Shown here: positions 3,777-64,000 of the stretch, piece after piece
Layout of the letters: every line of letters begins with the position of its first letter
How positions within the stretch are numbered: the stretch's first letter is position 1
Translations under genes and position numbers: made by a program
Notes under the pieces: generated by a model
Seen by the model: only the letters and a program-made list of their open reading frames with translations
The model's database searches: none
Told to the model about the DNA's origin: nothing
Assembly (NCBI GenBank): GCA_015178975.1
Contig: WHVD01000052.1
Location: forward strand, 372,001-436,000
DNA length: 64,000 nucleotides
Direction of reading: 5' to 3'
DNA from: Hysterangium stoloniferum
Lineage: Eukaryota > Basidiomycota > Agaricomycetes > Hysterangiales > Hysterangiaceae

Positions 3777-6686
3777 GTGAAGAGTATCAAAAAAAAACTT
3801 GATCACATCAAAAAATATTTCTGTATAATATTACAAGTGGTAACAATTTCTGATTCTTTAATTATTGAACTTAAATTGAAGAAAATTCTGAAAATAAAAG
3901 CATTAATTGATTCAGAGTCTAGTCACATTTTTATGGACAAAACCTTTTCTCATCAAAACAATCTATCCTTCAATCAACTAAAAAATTTGTTATCTTTGAA
4001 ATTAATTGATGGGTCAATTCCGACATCAGGACAAATTATGCATACAACTACACTACAAGTTTATTTTCCATATGGGCAAATTCAAGAATTACAATTCTTT
4101 TTAACAATATAGACTCATCTTGTCAAGGAGTATTAGGACTCAACTGGCTGAAGCAATACAATCCTGTGATTGACTGGCAATCTGGCCATACTGTATATCA
4201 TTTGAACCTACTTCAACTCTGAATCTAATTCAAATGCCACTCAAGACTTTATTGGAAAAGAAGCATGCTTCAACCTTGGTGAGTCATCCATTTACTTCTG
4301 AGAAAATTCATGAAAAATCAAAACCCGAGACTATTAATCTGAGTATAAACATAGTAAACCAGAACCCATTCTTCTGAGCTGTGAAAGCAAAAGATTTACA
4401 AACTTTTGTGGTTTTCATTCACAATGAATCTTTCAAGACTTGTAAGGCCTCTGGTGCAAAAACTATGACTTCAACTTCTTTTGACATACTGAATGTCCTG
4501 ACTGAATATTTTGACTTCTTGGATATTTTTGATAAAAAAGAAGCTGAAGCCTGACCTCAACATCAAAGTTATGATCATGCTATCCCATTAGAAGAAGGAA
4601 CTATTCCACCTATAGGACTGATCTATTCGTTATCCAAGACAGAACTATAAATACTATGAGAATATCTCCAAGAAAATTTATCAAAGAAATTTATTTGATT
4701 GTTGCAATCTCCCACTGGTGCACCAATTGTATTTGTCAAGAACAAATATGGAAGTTTACGACTTTATGTTGATTATTGAGGACTTAATAAAATTACTCAA
4801 AAAAATTGGTATCCACTTTCTTTAATTCCCAATCTTTTGGATTGACTTTGAATGGTGAAATATTTTACAAAGATTGATATTCGAGGTGCCTATAATTTGG
4901 TTAGGATTGCCCCAGGTGATGAATAGAAAACAGTTTTTTGGACTCGATATGGATCTTTCAAATAATGCTCCAGCAACCTTCCAACAATTAATGAACGAAA
5001 TATTTGCAGATTCACTTGACATTTGGGTCATTATCTAGCTTGATGACATACATATTAATATTTTCTGACCGTTGAAAAACATTTATGACATGTTCAAGAA
5101 GTTCTTTGATGGATTCAACAAAATTGATTATTCACAAAACCTGAAAAATGTGAATTTTACAAGACTAGTATTGAATTTCTAGGATATGTTATTTCTTCTC
5201 AAGGTGTATATATGGATCAAGAAAAAATCAAAGTCATTCAAGATTGCCCTGACCCACAAAAAGTCCATGACATTCAATTGTTTTTAGGATTTGTGAATTT
5301 CTATCGAAGATTTATTCCAAGTTACTCTGAAATTGTTTTACCATTGACTTGACTTACTTGAAAAAATATTCAATGGCATTTCAATGACAAACATCAACAA
5401 GCATTTAAATTTGAAAAAAGAATTTACTACAGCCCCAACTTTAATCCATTGGCATCCAGAATATAAAGCTATACATGAAACTGATGCTTCTGATCATGCT
5501 ATAGCCTCAATATTTTATATGCAGACTTCCAACAATGACATTCATCCAGTCACCTATCATTCAAGAACTCTTTTGACTTCCAATATTAATTATGATACTT
5601 ATGACAAAGAATTATTGGCAATATTTTAATCTTGCAAAATTTGGCAACATTATTTTGAAGGAACAAAAGAACCAATTGTTAGGACCAGAAAACCCACCAG
5701 GCTCCAGGCCCCATCCTGTATGCACCCAACTCTCTATACCAGTTGTAGCTAACCAGAAAACCCGCTAGGCTCCAGACCCCACTCTATACTGTATGCACTC
5801 AATGCTATGCCCACCAAGTTGAAGTTCACCCATGTACATCAAACCTGTCTATACATGTCCAACTCTGTTCCATGCACCAGTCACCAGACTCCACCTGGAC
5901 AACCTGTCAGCTTTCTAACTGAGCTCCACTCCTGTTATGGTCAAATGACCTGTCATGCTTCAGACTCTGCCCCCATTCCATTCCATCCCTAACACCTAGT
6001 TTGGTGTTTATTCATCCCAATTTATGTTTACTTGTTTAAACTTTTATTATTACCAGATTTAGTATTGCATACAGTCCACAGTCTATACATTATAGTCTAA
6101 CTGATATTTGTACATACAATCAATCCAGTCAGAAAATTGATTAAGTTTCCCCAGTAACTCTAGCACCTATTCTACTCTATCTCCACCTCTCACCTCACAA
6201 TGCTAATGACCCCATCAGAGCCCACAGGCTTTCTGACTAGGTCTTTTGATATCAACACACATCAACCTATCAACTACACCCAGACTCCCTGGGTTTCCCA
6301 TCTACGTGTTTGAAATTGGATGCTATGATCTCATGAGGGTGCAGCCTATAAGCTGAAGCCAAGTCCTACTAGAATACCCATGGGTTCCTCTGGAAACCCT
6401 CTGTTAAGCTCTGCACAACCCTTAACACAATTGACATTTTAATGGATCACAATAATCTCAAATATTTTGCAACAACTCAAATTCTCTCTTGACAACAAGC
6501 TCAATGGGCAGAATATTTATTGACTTTGAATTTAAATATTCAATTTCAACTGGGAAAATTAAATTTGAAAACAGATATTTTTTCAAGAAGAAATGATGTC
6601 TATCTTAACAAACCCAACTACTTGCAAAAAAATCCCACCAATCTTTGACCAGTGTTTATGAATGAACAGATCAATGGCTTCCCTTT
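3777..6686 (+). pseudogene. G0 protease, reverse transcriptase and RNase H relic
   Basis: The protease active-site region is at about 3900-3940 (ALIDSESSHIFMD; the usual DSG triad is changed to DSE). RT follows from about 4690 (PTGAPIVFVKN, SLRLYVDY, TKIDIRGAYNLVRIAPGDE). The catalytic YLDD region near 5035 reads with a stop. The RT connection and RNase H follow (SIEFLGYVI, then ETDASDHAIASIFY at about 5470-5520). The LTR inserted at 5677 splits RNase H between KEP and IDILMDHNN; joining the flanks and removing one copy of the duplicated CAAT restores the frame. Multiple stops and frameshifts: pseudogene. Confidence 0.8.
5677..6427 (+). mobile_element. Solo LTR (beta-like) in G0 RNase H
   Basis: It starts TGTTAGGACC, ends CTTAACA, 751 bp, with CAAT repeated on both sides (5673-5676 and 6428-6431). 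With the LTR removed, the RNase H reading frame of G0 is restored. The conserved LTR hairpin (see findings) is at 6338-6360. CpG is depleted, so this is an old insertion, but younger than G0. Confidence 0.85.
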
Positions 6687-10421: not shown

Positions 10422-11395
10422 ATGACCAAAGGTTCAGGGTCGAAACCCTTCCCAGTTCAGTTAACAGTTGCGCCTATGTCGGTGCCGAGTGGACCAGCGA
10501 ACACGCAGGATCATCGGCACGTGCTCGAGCAGAAAAGAAAGGCACGTGAAGAGGAGGAGTGGAAGGAGAAGGAGGAGTTGGCAGCCATTGAGGCCGAGGA
10601 GAAGAAACAGGCGGTGGAAGAGGCTGCGTGCAAGCACTGGGAAGCAGTGCTTGCGAAGAACAAGCAGGAGGAGGCCGATCGGGCACAAGAGGAGGCGGTG
10701 GCAAAAAAGAAGCGGGAGGGGAAGGTAAGTCAGCTCCGGTATCTTTTGTGAACCTTACTGACATATATTTGTTAGTGCAAGGCTGCAACGCCTTTGGAGT
10801 CTGATGACAAAGAGGAAGAGGAGGACGAGGAGGATGCACCAGGGCCGTCGAGCCCCAAGGTGGGTTCGGTTTCCCTAAATGAAGGCTTTTTTAAATAATT
10901 TTCCTATAGAAACAAAAGCAGGCCCCAAAGGCGGGGCCTGAAAACGATCCTAAGTGCAACTGGTGCACGAAACAGGGTCGAATTTGCCACCCTCGGGCTA
11001 ATGGTCGGGGCCGCACTTGTCAAGAGTGCGCCGATCAGAAGCTTGGGTGCATCTTCCCAGGGGCCGATGGATCATTCCAGGAGCGACAGGCCGATGCTCT
11101 AGAAGAGCAAAACCGCCTTATGTGGACCTACTTCTCAGAGACGACTCGGTTCCAATTCGAGACACTGTGACAACAAGGGCTCATAACCGAACAATTGCGA
11201 CTTTTGGGTGTCGGGCTGGAGAAGCAGACCAGCGTTATTGAGTCCCTCGGAGGTCAACTGGAGCAGTACTTGGAAGTCTCGAGTTGCGATGGAGTTGGGC
11301 ATGAGATGGTTTGTCAGAGAAGGTCGGTGAAGTGGTATCAGTGGCTGTCAGTGCGGGAGAGGGTTCGGAGGCTGGAGAGGAGGGAGAAGTTGTAG
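10422..11395 (+). pseudogene. Antisense zinc-cluster/coiled-coil gene, copy 1 (in G1)
   Basis: Exons 10422-10724, 10776-10859 and from 10910, with GTAAGT/TTAG and GTGGGT/ATAG introns at the same places as in copies 2 and 3. Exon 1 (101 codons) is a charged helix rich in KR and E (KRKAREEEEWKEKEE), a likely coiled coil. Exon 2 is acidic and ends GPSSPK. Exon 3 holds CX2CX6CX10CX2CX6C (CNWC ... CQECADQKLGC), the spacing of fungal Zn2Cys6 domains. A TGA at 11168-11170, plausibly from CGA, ends the frame; it then stays open to 11395 with more helix-like sequence. Known Zn2Cys6 proteins bind DNA; the role here is unknown. It is convergent with G1 pol, about 110 bp from its end. Confidence 0.75.
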
Positions 11396-11506
11396 AGGAA
11401 GAAACTTAGATAGTAAATATATTGGTTTTTCTCTTTTAAAACAACAAATCATAGCGTGAAATCATAAGGCATAGTCGGAAAAAAGGTCAGATACCACGTG
11501 ATAGAC

Positions 11507-12160: not shown

Positions 12161-12280
12161 TTTCAGTGTCTGAGATGTTAGTTTTTTGTGGTTACAGCTT
12201 GAGGTGCAGAATCAGTAGCACTGTATTATGTAATAATAATAACAGAGCTTCGTTGTCCACTGTGCACATCATCTGGTCAG
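12161..12280. other. Unidentified insert beside the minisatellite
   Basis: At 12160 the match to G3 RNase H stops, and unrelated DNA follows up to the repeat array. It starts with a small inverted repeat, CAGACAC and GTGTCTG, near 12156-12175. Together with the array it replaces roughly 150 bp of RNase H that G3 still has (about 31010-31165). Confidence 0.55.
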
Positions 12281-12580
12281 CATTGTCATATTTCGGTCAG
12301 CATTGTCATATTTCGGTCAGCATTGTCATATTTCGGTCAGCATTGTCATATTTCGGTCAGCATTGTCATATTTCGGTCAGCATTGTCATATTTCGGTCAG
12401 CATTGTCATATTTCGGTCAGCATTGTCATATTTCGGTCAGCATTGTCATATTTCAGTCAGCATTGTCATATTTCGGTCAGCATTGTCATATTTCGGTCAG
12501 CATTGTCATATTTCGGTCAGCATTGTCATATTTCAGTCAGCATTGTCATATTTCGGTCAGCATTGTCATATTTCGGTCAG
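12281..12580 (+). repeat. 20-bp minisatellite, 15 units, in G1 RNase H
   Basis: Fifteen head-to-tail copies of a 20-bp unit (CATTGTCATATTTCGGTCAG), 300 bp, nearly perfect. Two units have CAGTCAG in place of CGGTCAG. 20 is not a multiple of 3, so all three frames stay open and produce repetitive reading frames on the + strand that are not genes. The array ends exactly where G3-like pol sequence (AGCATTTTTCAAAG) resumes. Confidence 0.97.
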
Positions 12581-13400
12581 CATTTTTCAAAGTCTGGAAA
12601 GCAGAGCGGCATTTGTCGTCAAAGACCCATGGTTGAGTTTTACGGGTAAGATGAGTGAGTGGTACTGTAATATCCGAGTAATTCTGAATAAAATGACGGT
12701 AAAAGTTGGCGAAACCTAAAAATGACTGAATGTCCTTGACTTTCCATGGTTCAGGCCAGTCACGGACAACTTGAACCTTGGTTTTGTCCATACGGAGACC
12801 CTCAGGTCTGATAATGAAACCTAAGTATTCAATAGAATCCATGTCAAAGTAACATTTTTTACCATTGGCGAAAAGACCAGTCTTCAGAAAACTTCACGGA
12901 CCTGTTCATCGTGAAGAGCGGGATCCTCCGAAAATACCAAAATGTCATCCAAATAGACTATAACACATATGTCAAGCATATCAGAAAATATATCATTAAC
13001 AAAATGTTGAAAAGTGGAAGGGGCGTTGGTAAGGCCGAACTGCATAACCAACTATTCAAAGGATCCATAGCGAGTCCAAAAAGCAGTTTTCCATTTATCA
13101 CCCTCAGCAATTCAAACCAAATGATAAGTGTGTTTGAGGTCTATTTTGGTGTGGATTCGAGCTTTCCGTGGGGTGTCGAGTAAATCAGTAACGAGTGGAA
13201 GTGGATACTTATCTTTCCGTGTGATGGAATTTAATCCTCTGAAATCGACACAGAGTCGAGGGAGCCATCCTTCTTTCTGATGAAAAGGACAGGTGCTCCG
13301 TACGGAGACTTTGAGGGACGGATAAAACCTATTGACAGATGTTCATCCAGGAACTCCCAAATAGACGAAAGTTCCGATTGGGATAATGGGTAAACTGGGC
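12581..13400 (-). pseudogene. G1 reverse transcriptase
   Basis: Continuous similarity to the RT of G2 and G3: the connection region with EYLGFIIRPEGLRMDKTKVQ and [19 protein letters not shown] (open, ending in the minisatellite), then upstream the palm with the YLDD equivalent at about 12950-12965 and the finger region (SPFGAPVLF equivalent at about 13290). Small indels break the frame upstream of 12842 and near 13060. Confidence 0.8.
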
Positions 13401-16144: not shown

Positions 16145-17158
16145 ATGGGACCAAAGCCCACGCCGCGCAAGCCTATGCCAACTGCCGGGCCCTCCACAGG
16201 CAGTCCGTACTGAGCGCCACTCACCGCTGCCCAAATTTTGGCACAGCGGGACGAGCAACGTCGACAGCGAGAAGAGGCAGAGCGAGAAGCCTGAGAGGTG
16301 GAGGAGGCCCTGAATAGGGAGTACCAGGCGGCGGTGGCCGCGGAGGAAGAGGCTGCAAGGCAGAGACAGAGGGATGAGGAGGAGGCTGCACGGGTGGCCG
16401 CGGAGAAGGCCAAGGTAGTGGCTGAGAAAGCCCAGGTGGCTGCGGAGAGAGCTGTGATAGTTGCAGGAAAGGTAAGTCCCAACATTTCGACTTGTCGTCT
16501 TTTTTTTGACTTGGCGCTTTCAGTGCAAGGTGGCGGAAATCGAATCGGAGTCTGAGGGGGAGCAAGAAAGCCCCAACAAGGTGAGTCTCGGTCCGTGGGA
16601 ATACCGTGGAGCTAACCGTGTCAACAGAAAGCAAGGAAGGCGGCACCAGTCTGCCTACCGACTCGGAATGACCCACGGTGTTCTGGTTGTAATGACCGGA
16701 ACACTGAGTGCAATCGGAAGTCCGGCCGGGGCCTGGGGTGCTATCAGTGCGCGCACCTCAAGGCGAGGTGCTCGCTCGTTCATGAGCAGGCCGCGGGGTC
16801 CAGTTCTCGGGAGAATAACAGGTTGGACGGGTACTCCAGTTTGGAAGAAGCCTTGGGACGGATTGCCGAGGGCATTGAGGCCCAGAACGAGTTGCTCCGA
16901 AAGAGCAACAAGGTCAGCGTAGTCATGGTGAACGATCTCCGCACAATCCGTGGGGACCACTTCAAGTTCCTCATGGAGTATGCTGGCTTTGTATATGACA
17001 AGCCGGAGGACGGGAGTTCCGAGGGGGCTGGGTCAGATGAGTAGGAGGTGCCCACAGAGATCGCGGAGCTACCCGAGGAGATGAATGAGGCAGGAAAGGC
17101 TGAGGTGGAAAAAGAGGTGGGGAAAATAGATAGCCCCATCAATGTAGATGAAGAATAA
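16145..17158 (+). pseudogene. Antisense zinc-cluster/coiled-coil gene, copy 2 (in G2)
   Basis: Exons 16145-16471, 16524-16580 and 16628-17044 (open to 17158 after a further stop), with GTAAGT/TCAG and GTGAGT/ACAG introns matching copies 1 and 3. Exon 1 encodes an Ala/Glu/Arg-rich helix with heptad-like runs (EEEAARQRQRDEEEAA, EKAKVVAEKAQVAAE) but has two in-frame TGA codons, probably former CGA. Exon 2 is acidic and Ser-rich. Exon 3 has CX2CX6CX9CX2CX6C (CSGC ... CYQCAHLKARC), then a helical region (LEEALGRIAEGIEAQNELL) and an acidic tail. The TATA box is at 16085-16093. Convergent with the G2 integrase, which ends 199 bp away at 17357. Confidence 0.78.
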
Positions 17159-17356
17159 AAAATAGAACTTAATAATAATTGAACATAAAAGTAAAGCGTG
17201 AAAACATAAAAAATAAAAGTCAAAGCCAAAGTCTGCGGAGAGTCCACTTAAAGACTTGACAAGACATGTCAGAACCTGTAAAAGCAAAGAGAGACATAGG
17301 GTGACAGGGAATAATGAAAATGAGTCCAAATGTAACACGGGGTCCGCGGAGTGCGG

Positions 17357-27101: not shown

Positions 27102-27705
27102 TGTTAAGTGCCGTGTCGGGAACTTATTCCGGAACCATCGGGAAGTCACCGGGAAGTCGGAAACTCGTGGATAGGGTCAGGACGTCGGCTTCAGCTTATG
27201 TGCTGCGCCTCTACGCAAACGCTCAATGTCCTTAATTTCGGAAGTGAACTAACGACGGAAGATATGGATATTCAGAGTTCCGAAGAGTTCCGAATATTGA
27301 GCGTACAGAAAGACGGGAGGAGGAATAAGAAACTAAGTCGATATCAGATCTAAAGTAAAGTACAAATTCGCGGAAACTAATATAAGTCTACTCGTTATTG
27401 TACTACAAACTGAGACCATAATAAGACGGAAACGGAAGTATTCTTAAAACGGAAATACAATAAGACATATTAGGAAGACAATATTCTGAGACGGGAATAC
27501 AACAACAAACGAGTGAATACTTGTCAACGGACAAATTACCAAATGCGGAACAAACGAAGAACGCGGATGATACGGTAACTATGATGTTCCGTAGTCGGAG
27601 GTCAAAGTCGGAAGTCGGGGATTGGAAGTCGGGAGTGGGAGACTGGAAGTTGGATATTGAAAGTGGGAAGTCGGATATTGAAACATCCGGGAACGGGTCA
27701 TAACA
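27102..27705 (-). mobile_element. LTR gamma, 3' LTR of G3
   Basis: 604 bp, TGTTAAGTGCCGTGTCGGG to GGGTCATAACA. Retains CpG where the copy at 24194 has TpG, so it is younger. It contains GTCGG/GGAAGTCGG-rich short repeats near 27595-27680. Hairpin at 27187-27209. Confidence 0.92.
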
Positions 27706-27739
27706 GTACCCCCCTGTTAGGCCGAAATCCCATAGAGGC
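27706..27739 (-). promoter_or_regulatory. Polypurine tract and conserved block of G3
   Basis: GGGGGGTAC against the LTR on the - strand and the TATGGGATTTCGGCC block shared with the other elements. Confidence 0.7.
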
Positions 27740-27833: not shown

Positions 27834-27840
27834 TATAAAA
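27834..27840 (+). promoter_or_regulatory. TATA box of antisense zinc-cluster gene, copy 3
   Basis: TATAAAA, 49 bp before the ATG at 27890; same layout in copy 4 on the other strand (about 35850). Confidence 0.65.
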
Positions 27841-27889: not shown

Positions 27890-29032
27890 ATGTCGATTCG
27901 TCGGCCATTATTCATCACTACCCCGGAAGACTCAGATACCGAAATATCCGTACTTCAAAAGATGTTGAAGGTCGCAGAACTTCAACAAAAACACCAGAAA
28001 ATGGAGGAGTTGAAGCGACGACAGGAGGAGGAGGAAAAAGCGTTGATGCAGGAGTTGAAAGATGCGGAGGAGGCGGAAAAGCGGGAATTGGAGCGGGCGA
28101 AGGCAGAAAAAGAAAAAGAGTTGGCGAGGTTGCGGAAAGTGATGGAGGATCGGAGGTTGAAGGAAGAAGAAGTGAAGAAACAACAAGAAGCTGAGGCGGC
28201 GGAAAAACGTAAGGAGGTAAGGGAAGGAAAGGTGAGTCCAATTCCATAGATTTCCATGGTTCCAACCGATAACTGTTACGTACAGCGAAAAGCCGTGGAG
28301 GTGGAAGTAGAGGGAGAAGCTGGGCCTTCAAGTCCTAAAGTGAGTGTATCTGTAACGGGAACGGTAGTCGTTTAACTTTCGAAACAGAAACCAAAGGTCA
28401 AAGCTCCGGAACGGATGGAAATTGCCCATGACACTCCATGTGCTCGATGTTCCGTACGGGATATAACTTGTTGGAAACAGAAGGTAAAATGGGGTGGAAC
28501 TTGTTATCCTTGCGCGGTCCTCAAACTTCCGTGCACTCTTGCTGCGAAAAGGGTTCCGAAAAGCGAAAAGGCTCAAAAACCTACCATCGCGGAAGGTTCA
28601 GGAGCGACCAAAACTGCAGAAACTAAGTTGCCGAGTACGGATGGTATGGGCGTTGAGCTCCTTAAGGAATTGGTCGATACAATGGTCTTCATCGGGGTTG
28701 AGATGCGGGAAATGCGGGAAACACTGGATCGCCATAATGAGATCCAGGAGAAGGGTTTCCGTTCGTTGGTCCGGAATTTCCGGAGGCAAAACGATTTCCT
28801 GGAGAAGATGATGGTTAGTATCGGTGTAATTGCGGTATCTGAACGATTTGCCGATAAGGCGAAAAACCAGCCGAACGATCCATTGGTGGAGTGTGTGGAG
28901 CGGAGATGGGGGTCGGGAAAAGAGGAGAGTGAAGATGAGGAGGTACAGGATATGGTGGAAAGTGCGGAAATTGCTGAAGAGCCGGAGGTTGGGACGGAAG
29001 GTGGATTTGGGGTGTCAGAGACTTTAAGATAG
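27890..29032 (+). CDS. Antisense zinc-cluster/coiled-coil gene, copy 3 (in G3), intact
   Basis: Three exons, 27890-28231, 28286-28339 and 28388-29032, give 346 residues without a stop; introns of 54 and 48 bp with GTGAGT donors, both phase 0. Residues 1-114: long charged helix (EELKRRQEEEEKALMQ, EEAEKRELERAKAEKEKE), a likely coiled coil. Exon 2: acidic linker ending GPSSPK. Residues about 149-174: CX2CX6CX10CX2CX6C (CARCSVRDITC, CYPCAVLKLPC), the spacing of Zn(II)2Cys6 DNA-binding domains. Then a second helical region (ELVDTMVFIGVEMREMRETLD) and an acidic C-terminus. It lies between LTR and pol, convergent with pol (88 bp apart). Function unknown; a DNA-binding regulator of the element is my inference. 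Confidence 0.85.
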
Positions 29033-29120: not shown

Positions 29121-30600
29121 TTAGAGTGATGATAAAGGTCCAGGTTTGCCTGGATAAGCTGTGTGGAAGTCAGTAACAATTTCCATAGCATGTCCAAGTT
29201 CCGTGGCCAATATCCATGAAGTTTCCTCGTCAGTACCTTCATAACCTGCCCATTTAACTAAATAGAGCAATTTACAAGTACGTCGGCGATTGTCGATTTT
29301 AGAATCCAATATTTCGGAAACTTCGAATTCGGGTTCTCCATCAATGATGACCGGAGGGGACGGAGGTTGAGTACGTTCCGGGAATGAGTTGGGAACACAA
29401 GGTTCTAACATGGAAATGTGGAAAACGGGGTGGACTGCTCGCATACTGTCGGGAAGACGGAGAGTCCATGAAAGTGAACCGGCTTGTGCTATAATTTCAA
29501 AAGGTCCTAAGAATTTCTCAGTGAGTTTTTTAGAAGGTCGGGTAGTACGGAAGAATTGAGCTTTTACAAAAACCTGATCACCAACTTTAAAATTAGGAGG
29601 CGGGATCCTGTTTTTGTCCGCGGAACGTTGATAATGTTCCTGTGCGGAAGAAATAGCTTTCCGAAGTTCTTGATGTAATTCGTCGAGGTCGGTAATAAAT
29701 TCTTGAGCACGGACAGAAGCCAAATCTCGTTCGGAATGTACTGTGAGATTCGGATTATAGCCTTTATTGGCGAAGAAGGGAGATATGCCGGTGGTTGCAT
29801 TTGGGGAGTTATTGTAGGCGAATTCCACGATCGGAAGAAGGGATTTCCAGTTGTCCTGTTGGTAATTACAATAGATGCGGAGATATTGTTCCAGTGTTTG
29901 ATTAACGTGTTCCGTTTGTCCATCACCTTCCAGGTGATATCCCGAGGTGAAGTGTAGTTTCATGTCGAGGGCTTTTCCGAGGGCCTGGAAGAAATGGGAG
30001 ACGAACTTGGAGCCTCGATCGGAAGTTACGTGAGATGGAACTCCGTGTTTGGAAAATACGTGAATAATGAAAAGTTCCGCTAATTGTAAGGATGTGATTG
30101 TATCATGAGTGGGTATGAAAATGCCTTGTTTCGAGAATCGGTCCACAACGACTAGAATGGATGTAAAGCCTTCGGAAGTCAGGAGTTGTTCGATAAAATC
30201 CATGGAAATTGAATTCCAAGGTTTTTCTGGTATCGGGAGTTGCTTGAGAAGGCCGTATGGCTTATGCCTCTGGGTTTTGGAGCGTAAGCAGGTGGTGCAT
30301 GACTTACAGAACTGAGTTACGAAATCTCGGAGGTTGGGCCAAGTATATTCTCTATGGATTAAACCAAGAGTATTGTTGATGCCGTAATGTCTGGAGATTG
30401 GATGATCGTGTTTATACTGAAGTACGCGGAGTCGAAGATTGTCGGAATCTGGAACGTAGATACGTCCATCGAGACGGATAAAACCTTGAGAGTCTTGTGA
30501 CCATTGGGGTTGGTTGGGATTGTCGGGAATGTCTAAATGTGGCTTGAGGGGTCGGAAGTGAGTGCGGAAAGGATATCTTGATGTAATTGCTCAATGTCCA
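29121..30600 (-). pseudogene. G3 integrase with chromodomain
   Basis: A long open part from 30203 or above to 29121. It has the catalytic core (SMDFIEQLLTSEGF, TSDRGSKFVSHFF, EHVNQTLEQYL), the C-terminal GPF module (TRPSKKLTEKFLGPFEI) and a chromodomain (FEVSEILDSKI, YLVKWAGYEGTDEETSW). The zinc-binding CKSCTTC part is upstream at about 30300. A small deletion near 30548, compared with the copies at 11.7 and 25.8 kb, shifts the frame close to the integrase start, so the polyprotein is broken there. Confidence 0.85.
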
Positions 30601-34597: not shown

Positions 34598-35800
34598 TCA
34601 TTCTTCAAAATCATGCAAGTTAAAAATAATAAAAATATTATTGCAACTATCATAAAGTTTCTGACACTCCAAATCCTCCTTCTGCTTCAACTCCTGTATC
34701 ATCCACAACCTCCACACTTTCCACCATATCCTGCACTTCATCATCTTCACTTTCCGGCCCCTTTCCTGACTCCCACCTTTTCTCCACACATTCTGCCAAT
34801 GGATCATTTGGCTGCTCCCTTGCCTTATTGGAAAACCTTTTGGAAACTGCAATAACACCAATACTGACCATTACCTTCTCCAGGAATTTGTTCTACCTCT
34901 GGAAATTCTGGGTCAACAACCAGAAACCTTTTTCTTGGATCTCATTATGGTGCTCTAGAGTATCCTACATCTTCATCAGTTCTGTCCTGATAAAAACCAA
35001 CACATCCACAATGTCTTTGAGAAGTTCAATGTCAGAACCATCCATATTTGGCACCTCAGCCTCCACATTCTTGGCCATTCCCAGATTTTCCACATCATCA
35101 ATTTTCTGAGCCTTCTCACTTTTCAGAGCCCTCTTCATGGTGAGAGTGCATGGAAGCTTGAGTACCATGCAAGGGTAGCAAGTTCTGCCCCATTTTACCT
35201 TCTGCTTCCAACAAGTCAAGTTCTGAATTGAGCACTGATAACACAGATTATCGTGGATAATTTCCATCCATTCTGGAGCTGTGACCTTTTGTTTCTGTTT
35301 TGGAAATTAGTCATGTCCTGAACTTTTACAGAATTACTTACTTTAAGATTTGATGGCCCAGCCTCTCCCTCCACTTCCACCACTGCGGCTTTTTGCTGCA
35401 TTCAATTGTTATCGAAAGAAACATGGAGCATTTTTTTTCACTTACCTTTCCCTCCCTTATCTCCCTCGCTCACTTTTCTGCTCCTCAGCATCCTGCTGCT
35501 TTTTCTCTGCTTCTTCCCTTGACTTCTGATCCTCTGTCACTTTCTGCAACCATGCCTTCCTTTTTTCCTCCACCCCTTTTTCTGCCTTCACCTGCTCCAA
35601 CTCACATTTTTCTGCCTCTTCCACCTCCTTCAAATCCCGCATCAACTCTCTCTCCTCCTGCTCTTGTTACCTTTCAACTCCTCCATCATTTGTCATTTTC
35701 ATTGAAGTTCTTCGACCTTTGACATTTTTGTGAGTATGACAATTTTGGTGTCTGAATCTTCCAGAGCAGTGGCAAATAACAGTCGATGAATTGACATGCA
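34598..35800 (-). pseudogene. Antisense zinc-cluster/coiled-coil gene, copy 4 (in G4)
   Basis: Mirror arrangement of copy 3 because G4 is on the + strand. It has the coiled-coil part (about 35800-35457, EVEEAEKCELEQVKAEK), then the cluster CX2CX6CX10CX2CX6C (CYQCSIQNLTC, CYPCMVLKLPC; 35267-34965), then MVSIGVIAVSKRF through GFGVSETL (34871-34650). Frameshifts and stops separate the parts. All six cysteines survive. A TATA sequence (GAGTATAAAAAC on the - strand) lies near 35850. Confidence 0.8.
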
Positions 35801-46344: not shown

Positions 46345-49300
46345 TCACAGATTCCTCAAGGTGGATGCCAAGTTTCCCATGGATGTTAATGTATCTGGAT
46401 GCTCTGGGCCAAGCAATTGCTTGTGTGCCTCCAGGTCCTGCATTTGTAGTTCCTGAGCTTCAGCATACTTTCCCAGATTACTGAAGGTAGTTGCCAAGTT
46501 TCCCATGGATGTTAGTGTATCAGGATGCTCTGGGCCAAGCAATTGCTTGCGTGCCTCCAGGACCTGCATGTGCAGCTCCTGAGCTTCAGTATACTTTCCC
46601 AGATTCATCAAGGTGGATGCCAAGTTTCCCATGGATGTTAATGTATCTGGATGCTCTGGGCCAAGCAATTGCTTGTGTGCCTCCAGGTCCTGCATTTGTA
46701 GTTCCTGAGCTTCAGCATACTTGCCCAAATTACTGAAGGTGGTTGCCAAGTTTGCCATGGATGTTAGTGTATCTGGATGCTCTGGGCCAAGCAATTGCTT
46801 GCATGCCTCCAGGTCCTGCATTTGTAGTTCCTGAGCTTCAGCATACTTTCCCAGATTACTGAAGGTGGTTGCCAAGTTTCCAATGGATGTTAGTGTATCT
46901 GGATGCTCTGGGCCAAGCAATTGCTTGTGTGCCTCCAGGACCTGCATTTGTAGTTCCTGAGCTTCAGTATACTTTCCCAGATTCATCAAGGTGGATGCCA
47001 AGTTTCCCATGGATGTTAATGTATCTGGATGCTCTGGACCAAGCAATTGCTTGCATGCCTCCAGGTCCTGCATTTGTAGTTCCTGAGCTTCAGCATACTT
47101 TCCCAGATTCCTGAAGGTAGTTGCCAAGTTTCCCATGGATGTTAGTGTATCAGGATGCTCTGGGCCAAGCAATTGCTTGCGTGCCTCCAGGACCTGCATG
47201 TGCAGCTCCTGAGCTTCAGTATACTTTCCCAGATTCATCAAGGTGGATGCCAAGTTTCCCATGGATGTTAATGTATCTGGATGCTCTGGGCCAAGCAATT
47301 GCTTGTGTGCCTCCAGGACCTGCATTTGTAGTTCCTGAGCTTCAGCATACTTTCCCAAATTACTGAAGGTGGTTGCCAAGTTTCCCATGGATATTAGTGT
47401 ATCTGGATGCTCTGGGCCAAGCAATTGCTTGCATGCCTCCAGGTCCTGCATTTGTAGTTCCTGAGCTTCAGCATACTGTCCCAGATTACTGAAGGTGGTT
47501 GCCAAGTTTCCCATGGATGTTAGTGTATCTGGATGCTCTGGGCCAAGCAATTGCTTGTGTGCCTCCAGGACCTGCATTTGTAGTTCCTGAGCTTCAGCAT
47601 ACTTTCCCAAATTACTGAAGGTGGTTGCCAAGTTTCCCATGGATATTAGTGTATCTGGATGCTCTGGGCCAAGCAATTGCTTGTGTGCCTCCAGGACCTG
47701 CATTTGTAGTTCCTGAGCTTCAGCATACTGTCCCAGATTACTGAAGGTGGTTGCCAAGTTTCCCATGGATGTTAGTGTATCTGGATGCTCTGGGCCAAGC
47801 AATTGCTTGCGTGCCTCCAGGACCTGCATTTCCAGCTCCTGAGCTTCAGTATACTTTCCCAGTTTCCTCAAGGTGGATGCCAAGTTTCCCATGGATGTTA
47901 ATGTATCTGGATGCTCTGGGCCAAGCAATTGCTTGCGTGCCTCCAGGACCTGCATTTCCAGCTCCTGAGCTTCAGTATACTTTCCCAGATTTATCAAGGT
48001 GGATGCCAAGTGTCCCATTGATGTTAATGTATCTGGATGCTCTGGGCCAAACAATTGCTTGTGTGCCTCCAGGACCTGCATTTCCAGCTCCTGAGCTTCA
48101 GTATACTTCCCCAGATTCTTCAAGGTGGATGCCAAGTTTCCCATGGATGTTAATGTATCTGGATGCTCTGGGCCAAGCAATTGCTTGCGTGCCTCCAGGA
48201 CCTGCATGTCCAGCTCCTGAGCTTCAGTATACTTTCCCAGATTCCTCAAGGTGGATGCCAAGTGTCCCATTGATGTTAATGTATCTGGATGCTCTGGGCC
48301 AAACAATTGCTTGCGTGCCTCCAGGTCCTGCATTTCCAGCTCCTGAGCTTCAGTATACTTTCCCAGTTTCCTCAAGGTGGATGCCAAGTTTCCCATGGAT
48401 GTTAATGTATCTGGATGCTCTGGGCCAAGCAATTGCTTGCGTGCCTCCAGGACCTGCATTTCCAGCTCCTGAGCTTCAGTATACTTTCCCAGATTACTGA
48501 AGGTGGTTGCCAAGTTTCCCATGGATGTTAGTGTATTGGGATGATCTGGGCCAAGCAATTGCTTGCGTGCCTCCAGGACCTGCATTTCCAGCTCCTGAGC
48601 TTCAGTATACTTTCCCAGATTCCTTAGGGTGGATGCCAAGTTTCCCATGGATGTTAATGTATCTGGATGCTCTGGGCCAAGCAATTGCTTGTGTGCCTCC
48701 AGGACCTGCATGACCAGCTCCTGAGCTTCAGTATACTTTCCCAGATTCCTCAAGGTGGATGCCAAGTTTCCCATGGATGTTAATGTATCTGGATGCTCTG
48801 GGCCAACCAATTGCTTGTGTGCCTTCAGGACCTGTATTTGCAGCTCTTGAGCTTCAGTATACTTCCCCAGATTCCTCAAGGTGGATGCCAAGTTTCCCAT
48901 GGATGTTAGTGTACCTGGGTGCTCTGGGCCAAGTAATTGCTTGCATGCCTCCAGGACTTGCATTTCCAGCTCCTGAGCTTCAGTATACTTCCCCAGATTC
49001 CTCAAGGTGGATGCCAAGTTTCCCATGGATGTTAATGTACCTGGATGCACTGGGCCAAGCAAGGGCTTGTGTGCCTCCAGGACCTGCATTTCCAGCTCCT
49101 GAGCTTCAGTATACTTCCCCAGATTCTTCAAGGTGGATGCCAAGTTTCCCATATATGCTAATGTATCTCGATGCCCTGGGCCAAGCCGCTGCTTACATGC
49201 CTCTAACACCTGCACTGCCAAATCCTGAGCTCTGTGATATTTCCCCTGTCTTTCCCAAATATATGCCAATTTTGACATTATAACCCAGGAACAAGCATGG
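46345..49300 (-). repeat. 126-bp TPR-coding tandem array of NLR1
   Basis: Units start LGPEHPDTLTSMGNLA and run 42 codons. N-terminal units are the most diverged. From about unit 13 two alternating types appear: one with STLMNLGKYTEAQ and one with TTFSNLGKYAEAQ, giving a 252-bp higher-order period. Units differ mainly in a few positions of the helix (STLRNL/TTFSNL, EMQVLEARKQL/QMQDLEACKQL). With the tail at 45866-46344 there are about 28 units. Confidence 0.93.
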
Positions 49301-51948
49301 TCAGGACCCAAAATCCACTTTCTGATAGCCATTATCTGTTGGCACAACCTGCTAGCTTGGTCCCAGTACCCATGTTCTATGAACACTGCTGTAAGAGCAA
49401 AGTGCTCATCATCACAGTAGCCTAATCCAAAATTTGGATTATAATGGGTATATGCTATTATATGTGGCAATATCATTCTATAAAAGTGGGCAGACTGCTT
49501 TACCAAATTTGTATTCCTATTGATTGAGTTTACAATCAAAGCTCGCACTGCAGCCCAATGCATGACCTGCTTCTCATTAACTACTTTGCCTCTAGCCCAT
49601 ACATGTACCACAGGATGAATGGACCATGAAAGTCCAGTAATTGATGGGACAATTGATACAAGTGAATAATCACAAAGCATTTGCATTGCTGTTCGGAGCT
49701 TTATGTATATCCATTGACCATCCTGATCACATCCAAGGAATTGAAATGGAAGATCAGCCTGGGTAGTCCTCAATCGGGAATCCTCAGTATTCCATTCATA
49801 TGCCTCAGCAGCTCTCTTGAATATTACTTCCATAATATTTTGATGATGAAAGAAGGCCATCATTTTTAGAAGACACAATGCATCATTGGCTGTATTTCCT
49901 TGAGCACTTTTCTTCTCAATACAATCATATGAGATGTCTAGTGTGCTACAAATTGTTTTGTTATATAGTGAGGCACCCTTATACCAGAGATGATCTCCAT
50001 GTAGAAGTATCTCATGGTTCTTAAGATATGTTGATATGTACTCTTCCACAGTACACAGTCCCATAGATATAGCTGCACCAGCAACATCTAATGCCAATGG
50101 CAGGAAACCCAAGCTTTCTGCAATGACATGCAGTGAGTCATTCTTCAACACATCAGTTTTACCCTCTCTTATTGATGATCTCATGAGTAGTGAAATGGCA
50201 TCATCTTTGGACAACACCTCAAGATTAAGAGTGCTGCTCACAGACTGCTGTAGATCAGGATTTCTACTTGTAATCAATACATCCAACAAACGTGCTGGAG
50301 GAAGGTATTTTGAAACCAGAGAAGTCATACCATCAGCATTATCAAAAATAAGCAAGCACTTTCTCCCTAGTCTGGCAAGCCACCCTATAATTGCTTCACC
50401 TGACTCTTCAATTCCTAGTGACTTCATCATAGGATCAAGTTTAGCTATTTCAGTGAAACTCGTGTGAAGAGTTTCTGCAGTTGTAGCATCAAGCCATAAT
50501 ATCCTCCAATACCTAGGTGATATATCAGTATAGTCAGAATGCAATGCACTTATAAATAAATAATAATGAAATGACCCACAGCTTAAGATCTGCACATTGT
50601 TCAGCAAACTTTAAGGAAATCTGGGTCTTTCCAATACCACCCATGCCATACAACAGCAAGTGTTTGCAATGAGTTGTAACATTCTCATCTACAAAGAATG
50701 TTCTCAACTTCTCCAGGTAAACAATTTGACCAGTGAACCTTGGACTGGATAAAAGCTTGGCCCTGTAAGATAGACCCTTGTTCAGAATATCTGATGATCT
50801 GGATAAGAATATAGAGCTTTACAAGCAGAAAAGATACTACACCATCATACTGGCTATTGTCCCTTCCATATTTCAGCTCCAGTTTAAGATCACATCTCAT
50901 ACTTTGCAACAATGAGACCATCACAATAAAATCATCATCTTCACCTGAGTAAAATTTTATCATATCCATGTGACTCTTGTTCAGCCCAATAGCTTCAGTA
51001 TTCCGTGCACCTGGAACAATAGCTGAGGACTTTGGCACAATCTGACTTCCCGTGAGCAGGTGGTAATCAAATAGTGCTATTTGAACCACTCACAAAGCTG
51101 TATGTACCATCATGCAGGCCAGTTTCATACGTTTCATAAAGAAACTTCGTGTAGAAACGAGCACTGATCCCGTTGTACTGAGATAACTGTATTTCCAACA
51201 TCTCTGAATTGGTTGCCAAGTTTCGTAACAATTTATGGATAGTATTCTCATCAACTGGCAGAAGTACGCGCAGCATTTGGGAGGCAGACAGTGCAACAGC
51301 TGTCCCTTGGTGCGGGGTCCCAAAGAACAGTATCCCATTCGTGGACAGCATTATGTCCTTATGATAAGGAAGGTGAGATTTGTTGCATTGATTGGCATGA
51401 ATCAAAGCCTACGCGCGCACAGCCTAGTTTGAACTCAGAACATAGTAGTTTGAAATGAAACACCTACAAATTTGAGAATAATGCCACCCAAGCTGTGGGC
51501 AAGAAATATAATGGGACGTTTCTAGCCATAATTTAATAAGTATTCCCCATAAATAAAAGAAACTCACTGTTGTAGTTGTATTGTTCCTAAGCAAAGCGAG
51601 TCGCGAAATAAAATTTTCTGCGTGACCATACAATGTCTCGTCTATCTTATTTGATTGACTACCAGTGGATACATGATAGCCGTACGTAGCAATTCTGGCG
51701 TGAGGTAATCGTTGGGGCAATAGGTCTCTAAGCCAGAGTATTCCATTTTCGGCTGTCCAGGAGTCTTCGCGATGTCCATCTAGGCCGTGGATGGCGACGA
51801 TGCTACCAGAATTGTTATTAACGGGGAAACACAGGTACGTTGTTAACATGACACACTCGACAGTAGGGGAGATGCCCTCGACGAGCACTTTAATGCCCAG
51901 TCCAGAACCCGTCCGATCACGAGTATAGTTCACAATTTCTGATTCCAT
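46345..51948 (-). CDS. NLR1: alpha/beta hydrolase - NB-ARC - TPR receptor-like protein
   Basis: Exons (right to left) 51948-51568, 51521-51468, 51408-51094, 51041-50843, 50790-50580, 50512-46345, with 46-67 bp GT-AG introns, give 1775 residues. Residues 1-250: alpha/beta hydrolase (IVAIHGLDGH about 49-58, AHSLGG with Ser 137, ILFFGTPHQG after it). About 320-700: NB-ARC ATPase with P-loop GMGGIGKTQ (365-373), Walker B LLIFDNAD (440-447), LITSR (466), LGFLPLALD (521-529) and HPVVHVWAR (686-694). From 788: about 23.5 TPR units of 42 residues. Fungal NLRs of this build are thought to act in non-self recognition and cell death. A GGA-to-TGA change (46345-46347) cuts the array. The start is the first ATG of exon 1; a CAG before it would allow an upstream exon. 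Confidence 0.88.
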
Positions 51949-58281: not shown

Positions 58282-61200
58282 TTATTTGCAGGCCTCCAGG
58301 ACCTGCATTTCCAGCTCCTGAGCATCAGTATACTTTCTTAGATGTCTCAAGGTGCATGCCAAGGCTCCCATGGATGTTAATGTATGGGGATGCTCTGGAC
58401 CAAGCAGTTTCTTACATGCCTCCAGGACCTGCATTTCCAGCTCCTGAGCTTCAGTATACTTTCCCAGATGTCTGAAGGTGCATGCCAAGGCTCCCATGGA
58501 TGTTAAAGTATCTGGATGCTCTGGACCAAGCAGCTTCTTGCATGCCTCCAAGACTGGCATTTCCAGCTCCTGAGCTTGAGTAAACTTTCCCAGATACCTG
58601 AAGGTGCATGCCAAGGCTCCCATGGACATTAAAGTATCTGGATGCTCTGGACCAAGCAGTTTCTTGCATGTCTCCAGGACCTTCATTTCCAGCTCCTGAG
58701 CTTCAGTATGCTTTCCCAGATGTGTTAAGGTGGATGCCAAGTTTCCCATGGATGTTAATGTATCTGGATGCTCTGAACCAAGCAGTTGCTTCTGTGACTC
58801 CAGGACCTGTATTTCCAGCTCCTGAGCTTCAGTATACTTTCCCAGATGTCTGAATGTGCATGCCAAGGCTCCCATGGATGTTAAAGTATCTGGATGCTCT
58901 GGACCAAGCAGCTTCTTGGATACCTCCAAGACCTGCATTTCCAGCTCCTGAGCTTCAGTATACTTTCCCAGCTTCCTCAAGGTGTATGCCAAGTGTGCCA
59001 TAGATGTTAATGTATGGGGATGCTCTGGACCAAGCAGTTTCTTGCAAGCCTCCAGGACCTGCATTTCCAGCTCCTGAGCTTGAGTAAACTTTCCCAGATA
59101 CCTGAAGGTGCATGCCAAGGCTCCCATGGACATTAAAGTATCTGGATGCTCTGGACCATGCAGTTTCTTGCATGTCTCCAGGACCTTCATTTCCAGCTCC
59201 TGAGCTTCAGTATACTTTCCCAGATACCTCAAGGTGCATGCCAAGGCTCCCATGGATGTTAAAGTATCTGGATGCTCTGGACCAAGTAGTTTCCTGTGTG
59301 CCTCCAGGACCTGCATTTCCAGCTCCTGAGCTTCAGTATACCTTCCCAGATGCCTGAAGGTGCATGCCAAGCCTCCCATGGATGTTAAAGTATCTGGATG
59401 GTCTGGACCAAGCAGTTTCTTGCGTTCCTCCAGGACCTGTATTTCCAGCTCCTGAGCTTCAGTATACTTTCCCAGCTTCCTCAAGGTGTATGCCAAGTGT
59501 GCCATAGATGTTAATGTATGGGGATGCTCTGGACCAAGCAGTTTCTTGCACGTCTCCAGGACCTTCATTTCCAGCTCCTGAGCTTCAGTATACTTTCCCA
59601 GATACCTCAAGGTGCATGCCAAGGCTCCCGTGGATGTTAAAGTATCTGGATGCTCTGGACCAAGTAGTTTCCTGTGTGCCTCCAGGACCTGCATTTCCAG
59701 CTCCTGAGCTTCAGTATACCGTCCCAGATGCCTGAAGGTGCATGCCAAGCCTCCCATGGATGTTAAAGTATCTGGATGGTCTGGACCAAGCAGTTTCTTG
59801 CGTTCCTCTAGGACCTGTATTTCCAGCTCCTGAGCTTCAGTATACTTTCCCATCTTCCTCAAGGTGTATGCCAAGTGTGCCATAGATGTTAATGTATGGA
59901 GATGCTCTGGACCAAGCAGTTTCTTGCATGCCTCCAGGACCTGCATTTCCAGCTTCTGAGCTTGAGTAAACTTTCCCAGATACCTGAAGGTGCATGCCAA
60001 GGCTCCCATGGACATTAAAGTATCTCGATGCTCTGGACCAAGCAGTTTCTTGCATGTCTCCAGGACCTTCATTTCCAGCTCCTGAGCTTCAGTATACTTT
60101 CCCAGATACCTCAAGGTGCATGCCAAGGCTCCCATGGATGTTAAAGTATCTGGATGCTCTGGACCAAGTAGTTTCCTGTGTGCCTCCAGGACCTGCATTT
60201 CCAGCTCCTGAGCTTCAGTATACGTTCCCAGTTGCCTGAAGGTGCATGCCAAGCCTCCCATGGATGTTAAAGTATCTGGATGGTCTGGACCAAGCAGTTT
60301 CTTGCGTTCCTCCAGGACCTGTATTTCCAGCTCCTGAGCTTCAGTATACTTTCCCAGCTTCCTCAAGGCATATGCCAAGTGTGCCATAGATGTTAATGTA
60401 TGGGGATGCTCTGGACCAAGCAGTTTCCTGCGTGCCTCCAGGACCTGCATTTCCAGCTTCTGAGCTTCAGGATGTTTTCCCAGATACCTCAAGGTGTATG
60501 CCAAGCCTCCCATGGATGTTAAAGTATCTGGATGCTCTGGACCAAGCAGTTTCTTGCGTGCCTCCAGGACCTGCATTTCAAGCTCCTGAGCTTCAGTATA
60601 CCTTCCCAGATTCCTCAAGGTATATGCAAAGTTTCCCATGGATGTTAATGTATGTGGGTGCTCTGGGCCACACAGTTCCTTGCATGCCTCCAGGACCTGC
60701 ATTTCCAGCTTCTGAGCTTCAGGATACTTTCCCAGATGCCTCAAGGTGCATGCCAAGCATCCCATAGATATTAAAGTATCTGGATGCTTTGGACCAAGCA
60801 GTTTCTTTCGTGTCTCTAGGACCTGTATTTCCAGCTTCTGAGCTTGAGGATATTTTCCCTGATGCCTCAAGGTGCATGCCAAGCATCCCATGGATGTTAA
60901 AGTATGTGGATGGTCTGGACCAAGCAGTTTCTTGTGTGCCTCCAGGACCTGCATTTCCAGCTTCTGAGCTTCAGTATACTTTCCCAGATCCCTCAAGGTG
61001 CATGCCAAGCCTCCCATGGATGTTAAAGTATGTGGATGCTCTGGACCAAGCAGTTTCTTGCACGTCTCCAGGACCTGCATTTCCAGCTTCTGAGCTTCAG
61101 TATACTTTCCCAGATGCCTCAAGGTGCATGCCAAGGTTCCCATGGATGTTAAAGTATCTGGATGCTCTGGACCAAGTAGTTTCCTGCATGCCTCCAGGAC

Positions 61201-61830
61201 CTGCATTTCCAGTTCCTGAGCTTCAGTATACTTTCCCAGATGCCTCAAGGTGCATGCCAAGTTAACCATGGATGTTAAAGTATCTGGATGCTCTGGACCA
61301 AGCAGTTTCTTGCGTGCCTCCAGCACCTGCATTTCCAGCTCCTGAGCTTCAGTATACCTTCCCAGATTCCTCAAGGTGTATGCAAAGTTTCCCATGGATG
61401 TTAATGTATGTGGGTGCTCTGGGCCACACAGTTCCTTGCATGCCTCCATGACCTGCATTTCCAGCTCCTGAGCTTCAGTATACTTTCCCAGACAGTTCAA
61501 GATGCATGCCAACTCTCCCCTGGATGTTAAAGTATCTGGATGCTCTGGACCAAGCAGTTTCCTGCATGCCTCCAGGACCTGCATTTCAAGCTCCTGAGCT
61601 TCAATGTACTTTCCCAGATTCCTCAAGATGGATGCCAACTTTCCCATATATGCTATGGTGTGTGGATGCTCTAAGCCAACCTGCTGCTTGGATTTCTCCA
61701 AGACCTGCACTGCCAGCTTCTGCGCTCTGCAATATTTTCCCTGCCTGTCCCAAATGTAGGCCAATTGTGACATTATAGCCATGGAACAATCATGGTCAGG
61801 ACCCAAGATCCATTTTCTGATGGCCATTAT
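58282..61830 (-). repeat. 126-bp TPR-coding tandem array of NLR2
   Basis: 28 units. Unit types recur in a fixed order, giving higher-order repeats: MAHLAYTLRKLGKYTEAQ, then MGGLACTFRHLGRYTEAQ, then MGALACTLRYLGKYTEAQ, and in most rounds MGALACTFRYLGKFTQAQ. Three to four such rounds occupy the C-terminal half, so this half grew by duplication of 3-4 unit blocks (about 378-504 bp), unlike the 2-unit blocks of NLR1. Confidence 0.93.
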
Positions 61831-64000
61831 TTGTTGGCACCACCTACTAGCATAGTCCCAGTATCCATTTTCAATGTATTCTGCTGTAAGAGCAAAGTGC
61901 TCATCATCACAGTAAGACAATCCAAAATATGAAGTATAATGATTATATGCCATCACATGTGGTAATATCATTCTATGAAACTGGTAGGACTGCTCCACCA
62001 AATCCATATTACCATTGATTGAGTTTACAATTAAAGCTCGCACTGCAGCCAAGTGTATAATCTGCTTCTCATTGACTACCTTGTCTCTTGCCCAAACTTG
62101 CACTATAGGATGAATGGACCATGAAAGTCCCATGATTGATGGGACTTTTGATATCAGTGAATAATCACAAAGCATTTGCATCGCTGTTCTGAGTTTTGTG
62201 CATATCCATTGACCATTCTCATCACATTCAAGGAATTGAAATGGAAGATCAGGCTGTGTTGTTGCTAACCTGGAATCCTTGATGTCCCATTCACATGCTT
62301 CAGCAGCTCTCTGGAATATTACTTCCATAATATTTTGATGATGAAAGAAGGCCATCATTTTCAGAAGACATAATGCATCACTAGGTGTATTTCCTGGAGC
62401 ACTTTGCTTCTCAATACCATCATATGAGATATCTAGTGTTCCATAAAGTGTTTTGTTATATAGTGAGGCACCCTTATATAGGAGATGATCTCCATGTAGA
62501 AGTATCTCATGGTTCTTGAGATATGTTGATATATACTTTTCTACTGTACACAATCCCATATATATAGCTGCACCAGTAACATCCAATGCCAATGGCAGAA
62601 AGCCCAATTTTTCTGCAATGGCTTGTAGCAGTTCAATCTTTAACACATGAGTTTCACCCTCCCTTGTTGATGATCTCATAAGTAGTAAAATGGCATCTTC
62701 TTTGGACATCACCTCAAGATGAAGAGCACTACTGACAGCTTGGTGCAGATCAGGATTTCTACTTGTGATCAAGACATCCAACAAATGTGCCGGAGGAAGG
62801 TATCTTGAAACCACAGCAGTCATACCATCAGCATTATCAAAAATAAGCAAGCATTTTCTTCCTAGTCCAGCAAGCCACTCTATAATAGCTTCCCCTGACT
62901 CTTCAATCCCTAGTGACTTCATAACAGGATCAAGTTTAGAGATCTCAGTGAAACTTGTCTGGAGAGTTTCTGCAGTTGTAGCATCAAGCCATAATATTCT
63001 CCAGTAACTAGGTGATATATCAGTATGATGTGAACTGCAATGTGTTTAGAAATAATAATGAAGTAACCCACAGTGTAAGGTCTGTACACTCTTCAGCAAA
63101 CTTTAAGGAAATTTGGGTCTTTCCAATACCACCCATACCATACAACAACAAGTGTTTTCGGTGAGTTGTAACATTCCCATCCACAAAGAATGTTCTCAAC
63201 TTCTCTAGGTAAATATCTTGACCAGTGAACCGCGGACTGGATAGAAGTTTGCGTCTGTAAGATGAACCCCTATTCAGAACATCTGATGATCCAGATAAGA
63301 ACATCACATTTTACAAGCAGATAAGATGCCATACCATCAGACTGGCTAAAGTCCCTTCCATATTCCAGCTCCAGCTTAGGAAGATCACTTCCCATAGTTT
63401 GCAACAATGAGACGACCATGTTGAAATCATCATCTTCAGCTGAGTAAAATTTTATCATATCTGTGTGATTCTTGTTCAGCACAATAGGTTCAGCATTCCG
63501 TGCACCTGGAACAATAGCAGAGGACTTTGGTACCATCTATCCCCATGTGAGCTCGTAAAAATCAAACAGTGCTGCTCAAAGCACTTACAAAACTAGATGT
63601 TCCATCATGCAAGTCAGTTTGATAGGCTTCATAGAGAAACTTTGTGTTGAAACGAGCACTGATCCCGTTGTATTGAGACAATTGCATTTCTAACACTTCT
63701 GAATTAGTTGCCAAGCTTCGTAACAATTTATGGGAGGTATTTTCATCAACTGGCAGGAGTACACGGAGCATCTGGGAGGCAGAGAGTGCAACAGCTGCTC
63801 CTTGGTGTGGAGTTCCGAAGAACAGTATCCCAGTTGTGTACAGCATTATTTCCTCGTGATAAGGAAGGTGATATTTGTTGCATTGATTGGCATGGATCAA
63901 AGCCTATGCGCACACATTCCAGTTGGAACTCAGAGCATAGAAGGACTTTGAAATGGAACACCTACGAATTTAAGAATAATGCCACCTAAGCTGTGGGCAA
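58282..64000 (-). CDS. NLR2: alpha/beta hydrolase - NB-ARC - TPR protein, 5' end outside the window
   Basis: Exons within the window: 64000-63966 (partial, GGIILKF end), 63903-63589, 63536-63335, 63282-63072, 63007-58282, with introns at the same positions and phases as NLR1. Hydrolase part: ILFFGTPHQGAAVALSASQM. NB-ARC: P-loop GMGGIGKTQ, CLLIFDNADG, LDVLITSRNPDL, LGFLPLALDV and HPIVQVWAR in place of the usual HP..H. Then 28 TPR units of 42 residues (LGPEHPDTLTSMGALA type) to TAA at 58282-58284. Paralogue of NLR1 at the same strand, about 6.3 kb apart. Probably a surveillance protein with a hydrolase effector; ligand unknown. No stop or frameshift in the part seen. Confidence 0.9.

Follow-up and report, generated by a model that had tools for sequence, protein, structure and literature searches.

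Chromodomain Gypsy elements in the genome of Hysterangium stoloniferum carry a reading frame that runs against pol near their 3' ends. Is this frame a gene, and what might its product do for the element that carries it? We examined both questions starting from a stretch of 64,000 nucleotides (contig WHVD01000052.1, positions 372,001 to 436,000), which we call the window. The frame is a spliced gene that is placed between pol and the 3' LTR, is under purifying selection and has the same plan in three element families. What its protein does can be addressed only conditionally, and several explanations are weighed below.

A spliced antisense gene between pol and the 3' LTR

The best-preserved example in the window is the gamma-family gene of element G3, which occupies 27890-29032 (+) and consists of three exons (342, 54 and 645 bp; 346 codons) separated by GT..AG introns of 54 and 48 bp. 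A distance of 185 bp separates its ATG from the 3' LTR, whose edge is at 27705. The ORF at 29121-30590 (-) has family matches to integrase, Tf2-type SH3 and chromodomain, and the gene is therefore antisense to pol. The relevant features are as follows, with copy counts referring to the genomic copies described below.

27102..27705, minus strand: 3' LTR of G3
27706..27715, minus strand: probable polypurine tract adjoining the 3' LTR, read from the sequence
27721..27732, no strand assigned: the word GCCGAAATCCCA, common to the three families and 19 bp from the LTR edge in each
27834..27840, plus strand: TATAAAA, 56 bp ahead of the ATG; TATAAA at -55 to -57 in 31/31 copies
27890..28231, plus strand: exon 1 of the G3 antisense gene (gamma family), a charged helix-like region
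28232..28285, plus strand: intron 1, 54 bp, GT..CAG in 31/31 copies
28286..28339, plus strand: exon 2, an acidic stretch and then the beginning of a basic SPKK-type stretch
28340..28387, plus strand: intron 2, 48 bp, GT..CAG in 31/31 copies, the most diverged in sequence
28388..29032, plus strand: exon 3, with the six-cysteine cluster (residues 150-181), linker, helix, acidic tail and stop
29121..30590, minus strand: end of pol, with integrase, SH3 (Tf2-type) and chromodomain by family matches
10422..11409, plus strand: alpha-family antisense gene in G1, frame broken
16145..17159, plus strand: beta-family antisense gene in G2, frame broken
34653..35797 (about), minus strand: decayed gamma-like antisense gene in G4

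The original prediction placed such a gene in all four elements and considered the G3 copy intact. Both statements hold: the gene is present in G1 (ATG at 10422), G2 (ATG at 16145), G3 and G4, and the 346-codon frame of G3 is open, with stops or frameshifts disrupting the other three. A TATA promoter belonging to the gene itself probably lies in the stretch from the 3' LTR to the ATG. The 12-bp word GCCGAARTCCCA recurs in the spacers upstream of 10422, 16145 and 27890, always 19 bp from where the LTR-edge word starts. Present in three diverged families, it may serve in plus-strand priming or in the promoter of the antisense gene. Two other features of the window are a 20-bp tandem repeat inside G1 (12275-12584; 15.5 copies, 98% matches) and a pair of very long ORFs at 46345-50610 (-) and 58282-63045 (-), which span 1421 and 1587 codons between stops and encode tetratricopeptide repeats (23 and 26 TPR_10 stretches, respectively).

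A search of the genome (111 Mb, 554 contigs) with the gene DNA gave 359 first-look candidates, the best 40 of which were scored. We examined 31 of those 40, comprising the window copy, 20 copies with long flanks and 10 with short flanks; young copies are over-represented among them because the copies examined are the best matches. An LTR lies on one side of the antisense gene and integrase on the other in every long locus (20/20), with the LTR several hundred bases more distant at locus L028, and integrase adjoins the gene in all 10 short loci, where the LTR side falls outside the fetched DNA. LTR pairs with 94.7-99.3% identity are present in 15 of the 20 long loci. Among the 18 loci of at least 8 kb, the antisense frame is intact in 11, a pol frame of at least 1200 codons is found in 3, and the gag, pol and antisense frames are all open in 2; more intact copies are expected for the antisense frame, since it is much shorter than pol.

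The association is also evident when the search begins from integrase. At the best 87 of 5745 integrase candidates (88 rows, two merged), the antisense gene is convergent with integrase in 68, with 84-181 bp from stop to stop, where the gene side of the tally comprises the best 150 of 894 gene candidates. One of the other 19 integrase places, C528, carries the gene according to the DNA search. A hand count finds 114 of these best 150 exon-3 places free of in-frame stops. Like genes of the aORF-3R class, this gene lies between pol and the 3' LTR on the opposite strand and is carried by most copies of the element. That a spliced antisense gene travels with these Gypsy elements, and that its matches are tied to LTR elements, was anticipated by the original prediction and is borne out by the 31 of 31 copies that keep the introns and by the flanks of the long loci and integrase places. 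First-look candidates number 643 for the alpha-like protein and 4245 for the beta-like protein (unconfirmed counts). Among the matches listed, 22 beta-like places share an identical bit score of 203.2 and look as if they derive from one recent burst; 9 of the 22 are within 6 kb of a contig end.

Selection on the frame and its three families

In all 31 copies the ATG is kept, TATAAA stands at -55 to -57, and the two introns retain their lengths, their GT..CAG ends and an in-frame stop apiece; the spliced frame is intact in 22 of the 31. The intact copies have a dN/dS of 0.334 (Nei-Gojobori, 231 pairs). Over all 31 copies the gene frame scores 0.332 and the other five frames score 0.94, 1.02, 0.86, 0.41 and 1.26; we take the 0.41 antisense frame to be an echo of the gene frame through shared wobble positions. 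In a set of 20 copies, integrase has a dN/dS of 0.250 and the antisense gene in the same copies 0.364. When substitutions are relocated with base and CpG context kept, each of the 7 pairs shows fewer observed amino-acid changes than the relocation predicts (P = 0.0005, 0.0005, 0.002, 0.04, 0.07, 0.11 and 0.14, so that P <= 0.05 in 4 of 7). The low stop count in these pairs is partly due to the choice of intact copies. Intron 2 diverges by 0.22 versus 0.05 at codon position 2. Across 30 copies compared with the window copy, none of the six cysteines of the cluster is replaced (180 of 180 cells kept, versus 9384 of 10170 for other residues; cells are non-independent). Selection had been proposed from the outset, with a dN/dS near 1 named beforehand as the result that would count against it; the value of 0.33 is far from this, and we regard it as practically certain that the antisense frame is a gene under selection.

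The ratio pN/pS is uneven along the protein. Seven segments have values of 0.26-0.31, and the linker (residues 186-222) has a value of 1.14, for which a loss of constraint, diversifying selection or exchange with other lineages could each account. In intron 2, identity to the window copy is 0.96-1.00, 0.88-0.96 or 0.60-0.65, depending on the copy, and in the middle of exon 3 it is 0.97-0.99 or 0.71-0.74, combined variously with other segments. Recombination among copies is the plain reading of this mosaicism. Four gametes occur at 5678 of 15225 site pairs (Hudson-Kaplan minimum 48), a figure that recurrent mutation inflates.

The same plan recurs in sets of copies from three families (alpha: G1 and L040-L042; beta: G2 and L044-L046; diverse gamma: G3 and L051-L054). 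The alpha and beta genes share the gamma plan, with phase 0 introns of about 50 bp and, in their case, TATAAA at -56 to -58. The dN/dS of the gene frame is 0.24 in alpha and 0.21 in beta, where other frames range from 0.30 to 1.38, and 0.25 in the diverse gamma set; frames are intact in 1/4, 0/4 and 2/5 copies, respectively. Gamma integrases are 79-81% identical to those of alpha or beta (four loci, 431-466 residues compared). Exon-3 proteins of different families can be aligned only over 38-59 residues around the cysteines (32-42% identity), which agrees with the strong divergence that was originally noted. The cysteine pattern CX2CX6CX9-10CX2CX6C occurs in all three families, with spacing 2-6-10-2-6 in gamma and alpha and 2-6-9-2-6 in beta. 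The claim that the six cysteines and the exon plan are kept stands for the families as such, but individual copies depart from it: beta copy L044 has lost its first cysteine, and gamma copy L054 has an altered intron-1 donor and intron-2 acceptor.

The protein and its possible role

The cysteine spacing of the antisense protein satisfies the published zinc-cluster motif CX2CX6CX5-12CX2CX6-8C (PMC5412356). According to the same source, a zinc cluster often precedes a linker that is able to affect DNA specificity, and in Gal4 and Ppr1 a coiled-coil dimerization domain follows the linker. A four-member exon-3 profile has the PPR1 cluster as its top PDB match (E = 0.036) and zinc-cluster proteins in 4 of 16 listed rows (PPR1, RSC3 twice and LAC9). 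A 20-member profile returns zinc-cluster proteins in 3 of 12 rows (PPR1 and LEU3 twice), with an unrelated helical protein first. Of the 20 members, 12 match Pfam family PF00172 (Zn_clus), but with a best E of 0.62 they stay below its cut-off; DUF5380 (0.0037, in one member) and AvrD (0.023, in three), both unrelated families, score better. Since the family matches are below the cut-off, we use the label "Zn2Cys6-type by pattern" without assignment to PF00172. The Zn2Cys6-type designation of the original prediction is thus partly upheld: the spacing fits, but the family and structure matches all remain below threshold; we consider a fold of this type likely.

The coiled coil that had been proposed for exon 1 is not supported, as residues 21-112 are highly charged but have a heptad pattern no stronger than shuffles (P = 0.96). 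A weak heptad signal is present in the helix at residues 223-285 (score 0.67 versus 0.57 in shuffles, P = 0.10). The antisense protein does not match bZIP, and at E <= 1 it matches only Saf4_Yju2, below threshold. From its sequence we infer a nuclear protein in which a diverged Zn2Cys6-type cluster would be followed by a linker, helix and acidic tail, the build of a Gal4-type transcription factor.

Among proteins sharing five-residue words with it, a single-sequence search finds no relatives of the antisense protein at E <= 0.001, and BRTN is absent from the protein-search matches. Alignment searches on candidates chosen in the same way, one of which scored the best 8000 by shared words, find one relative each, both proteins of H. 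stoloniferum. The first has 62% identity with the alpha protein (155 residues), and its best match in the genome is fragmentary, with pieces at 78-98%; the second matches the genome at 99% over 137 residues. As a check on origin from a host gene, we inspected by eye the PF00172 matches in the genome (42 rows), and none falls at a listed antisense-gene place, the lists comprising the best 40 of 359 candidates by DNA and the best 150 of 894 by protein. Ordinary Zn_clus matches occur in close groups on contigs C56, C113, C115, C150 and C209, some with several per open frame.

In the mechanism that we favor, the TATA promoter between the 3' LTR and the ATG would drive the spliced antisense gene, whose protein would bind DNA of the element that encodes it, most likely at the LTR, and regulate that element's expression. 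The introns would survive retrotransposition because the splice signals of an antisense gene do not act as such in the sense genomic RNA, and the layout shows a way for a retroelement to carry an intron-bearing gene. That the protein acts on its element's own expression is a tentative reading to which we would give slightly less than an even chance. The fast-evolving linker corresponds to the segment that, in known zinc-cluster proteins, can determine which DNA is bound. A fuller version is unlikely as a whole: a retrotransposon lineage whose antisense Gal4-type factor switches on or de-silences its own LTRs, with linker and LTR array diverging in each family to give rival regulatory systems in one genome. 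If the protein does bind its own LTR, then the retrotransposon would encode a transcription factor specific to its own family, and the function of an antisense retroelement gene would become directly testable through a domain of known DNA-binding type. The fast divergence of the gene against a conserved pol provides a natural series of variants.

Candidate targets are found in the gamma LTR, where U3 opens with a loose array of 7-bp period made up of CCG-bearing units such as TCCGACT (57-66% match between units). The array varies among copies. Of 35 LTRs, 11 belong to a longer class and 24 to a shorter one. CGG/CCG triplets exceed shuffles in the gamma LTR (26 versus 15.8, P < 1/400) and the beta LTR (33 versus 24.5, P = 0.018), and are not in excess in the alpha stretch tested (5 versus 3.8, P = 0.32) or in the spacers of the three families. 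We dropped these triplets as protected binding sites: they lean in the same direction in 13 of 13 element bins (LTR bin strongest, z = 4.2), and across 35 LTRs they are no more conserved than the remaining CpG or G/C sites. Spacer and linker do not diverge together (0.95-0.98 versus 0.71-0.74, copies L029-L038). CpG sites in the 35 aligned gamma LTRs differ by about 0.055 per site versus 0.007 at other non-triplet sites, and this roughly eightfold faster change suggests cytosine methylation and deamination.

Such methylation would suit an anti-silencing factor that, by analogy with VANC, binds short repeats in the non-coding DNA of its own family and removes silencing marks. VANCs are described as element-encoded, with related VANCs acting on quite different elements through tandem repeats that differ between them (PMC5735166, PMC10398659), and the antisense protein likewise diverges far faster than pol in elements whose gamma LTR has a variable repeat array. 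However, zinc-cluster proteins are usually activators or repressors and the array is weak, and we judge this role improbable. Slightly less credence goes to a helper of integration that takes the pre-integration complex to the nucleus or to target chromatin. The basic SPKK-type stretch and DNA-binding-type domain would fit it, and nuclear roles of plant antisense proteins are discussed in PMC7264820, but the element's integrase already has a chromodomain, and the protein would come from a separate transcript and shows no link to capsid or integrase.

It is very unlikely that the antisense RNA itself is the active product, for example as a partner that anneals to sense RNA and supplies RNA silencing. 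The formation of double-stranded RNA from antisense transcripts of elements is discussed in PMC7264820; selection here acts at the amino-acid level, however, with splice sites and all six cysteines kept and intron 2 far more diverged than codon position 2. There is hardly any chance that the frame is a non-coding echo of a sense-strand ORF, since the 221-codon sense ORF that overlies the gene in 16 of the 20 long copies and the one low antisense frame per family (dN/dS 0.30-0.41) are outweighed by the gene's own frame having the lowest dN/dS in every set, by intron 2, the most diverged part, falling within the sense ORF, and by the constancy of the splice sites, TATA and ATG. We judge the sense ORF to be the echo of the antisense frame, and introns and frame comparison rule out a chance ORF as well.

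Comparison with known systems

The original prediction knew of no description of this arrangement, a view that has to be given up: such an arrangement is already known from Boty, from Grande, RIRE2 and Retand, and from the HBZ gene of HTLV-1. A fungal case is brtn of the Boty-like Gypsy elements of Botrytis cinerea (Zhao et al. 2011, as cited in PMC7264820, PMC8365987, PMC4227169 and PMC5987419), an additional gene that likewise runs opposite to gag-pol and sits between pol and the 3' LTR of a chromodomain Gypsy element. Its host is an ascomycete, however, and the citing descriptions, on which the comparison is based, leave splicing and a zinc cluster unstated.

The additional antisense ORFs of plants, including Grande gene23, RIRE2, Retand TRP28 and PvRetro13 (PMC7264820, PMC11963269), resemble the H. 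stoloniferum gene in place, orientation and presence in most copies. For gene23, a dedicated promoter upstream and a nuclear protein product are reported (PMC7264820, PMC11963269), and the TRP28 proteins are predicted DNA binders (PMC11963269). These ORFs differ in their protein domains, and the accounts cited mention neither a zinc cluster nor two constant introns. HBZ is also an antisense, spliced, nuclear regulator made near a 3' LTR (PMC10186651), but it is described there as a bZIP protein with a TATA-less promoter within the LTR, whereas here the TATA lies outside the LTR and bZIP is not matched.

Two systems without this layout offer likenesses in the protein. Gal4-type Zn2Cys6 factors such as PPR1 and LEU3 share the cysteine spacing, the order of cluster, linker and helix, and the acidic tail; here, by contrast, the cluster is in the middle of the protein behind a charged stretch, scores below family thresholds and is borne by a retrotransposon. 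The VANC proteins of Arabidopsis VANDAL elements serve as a working model of an element-encoded, fast-diverging protein with tandem-repeat targets, but they belong to another class of element in another host. The literature searched, which mostly excluded subscription papers, yielded no zinc-cluster antisense gene in a retrotransposon. Within that literature, what is new about the present gene is its zinc cluster, its pair of constant introns and its basidiomycete host.
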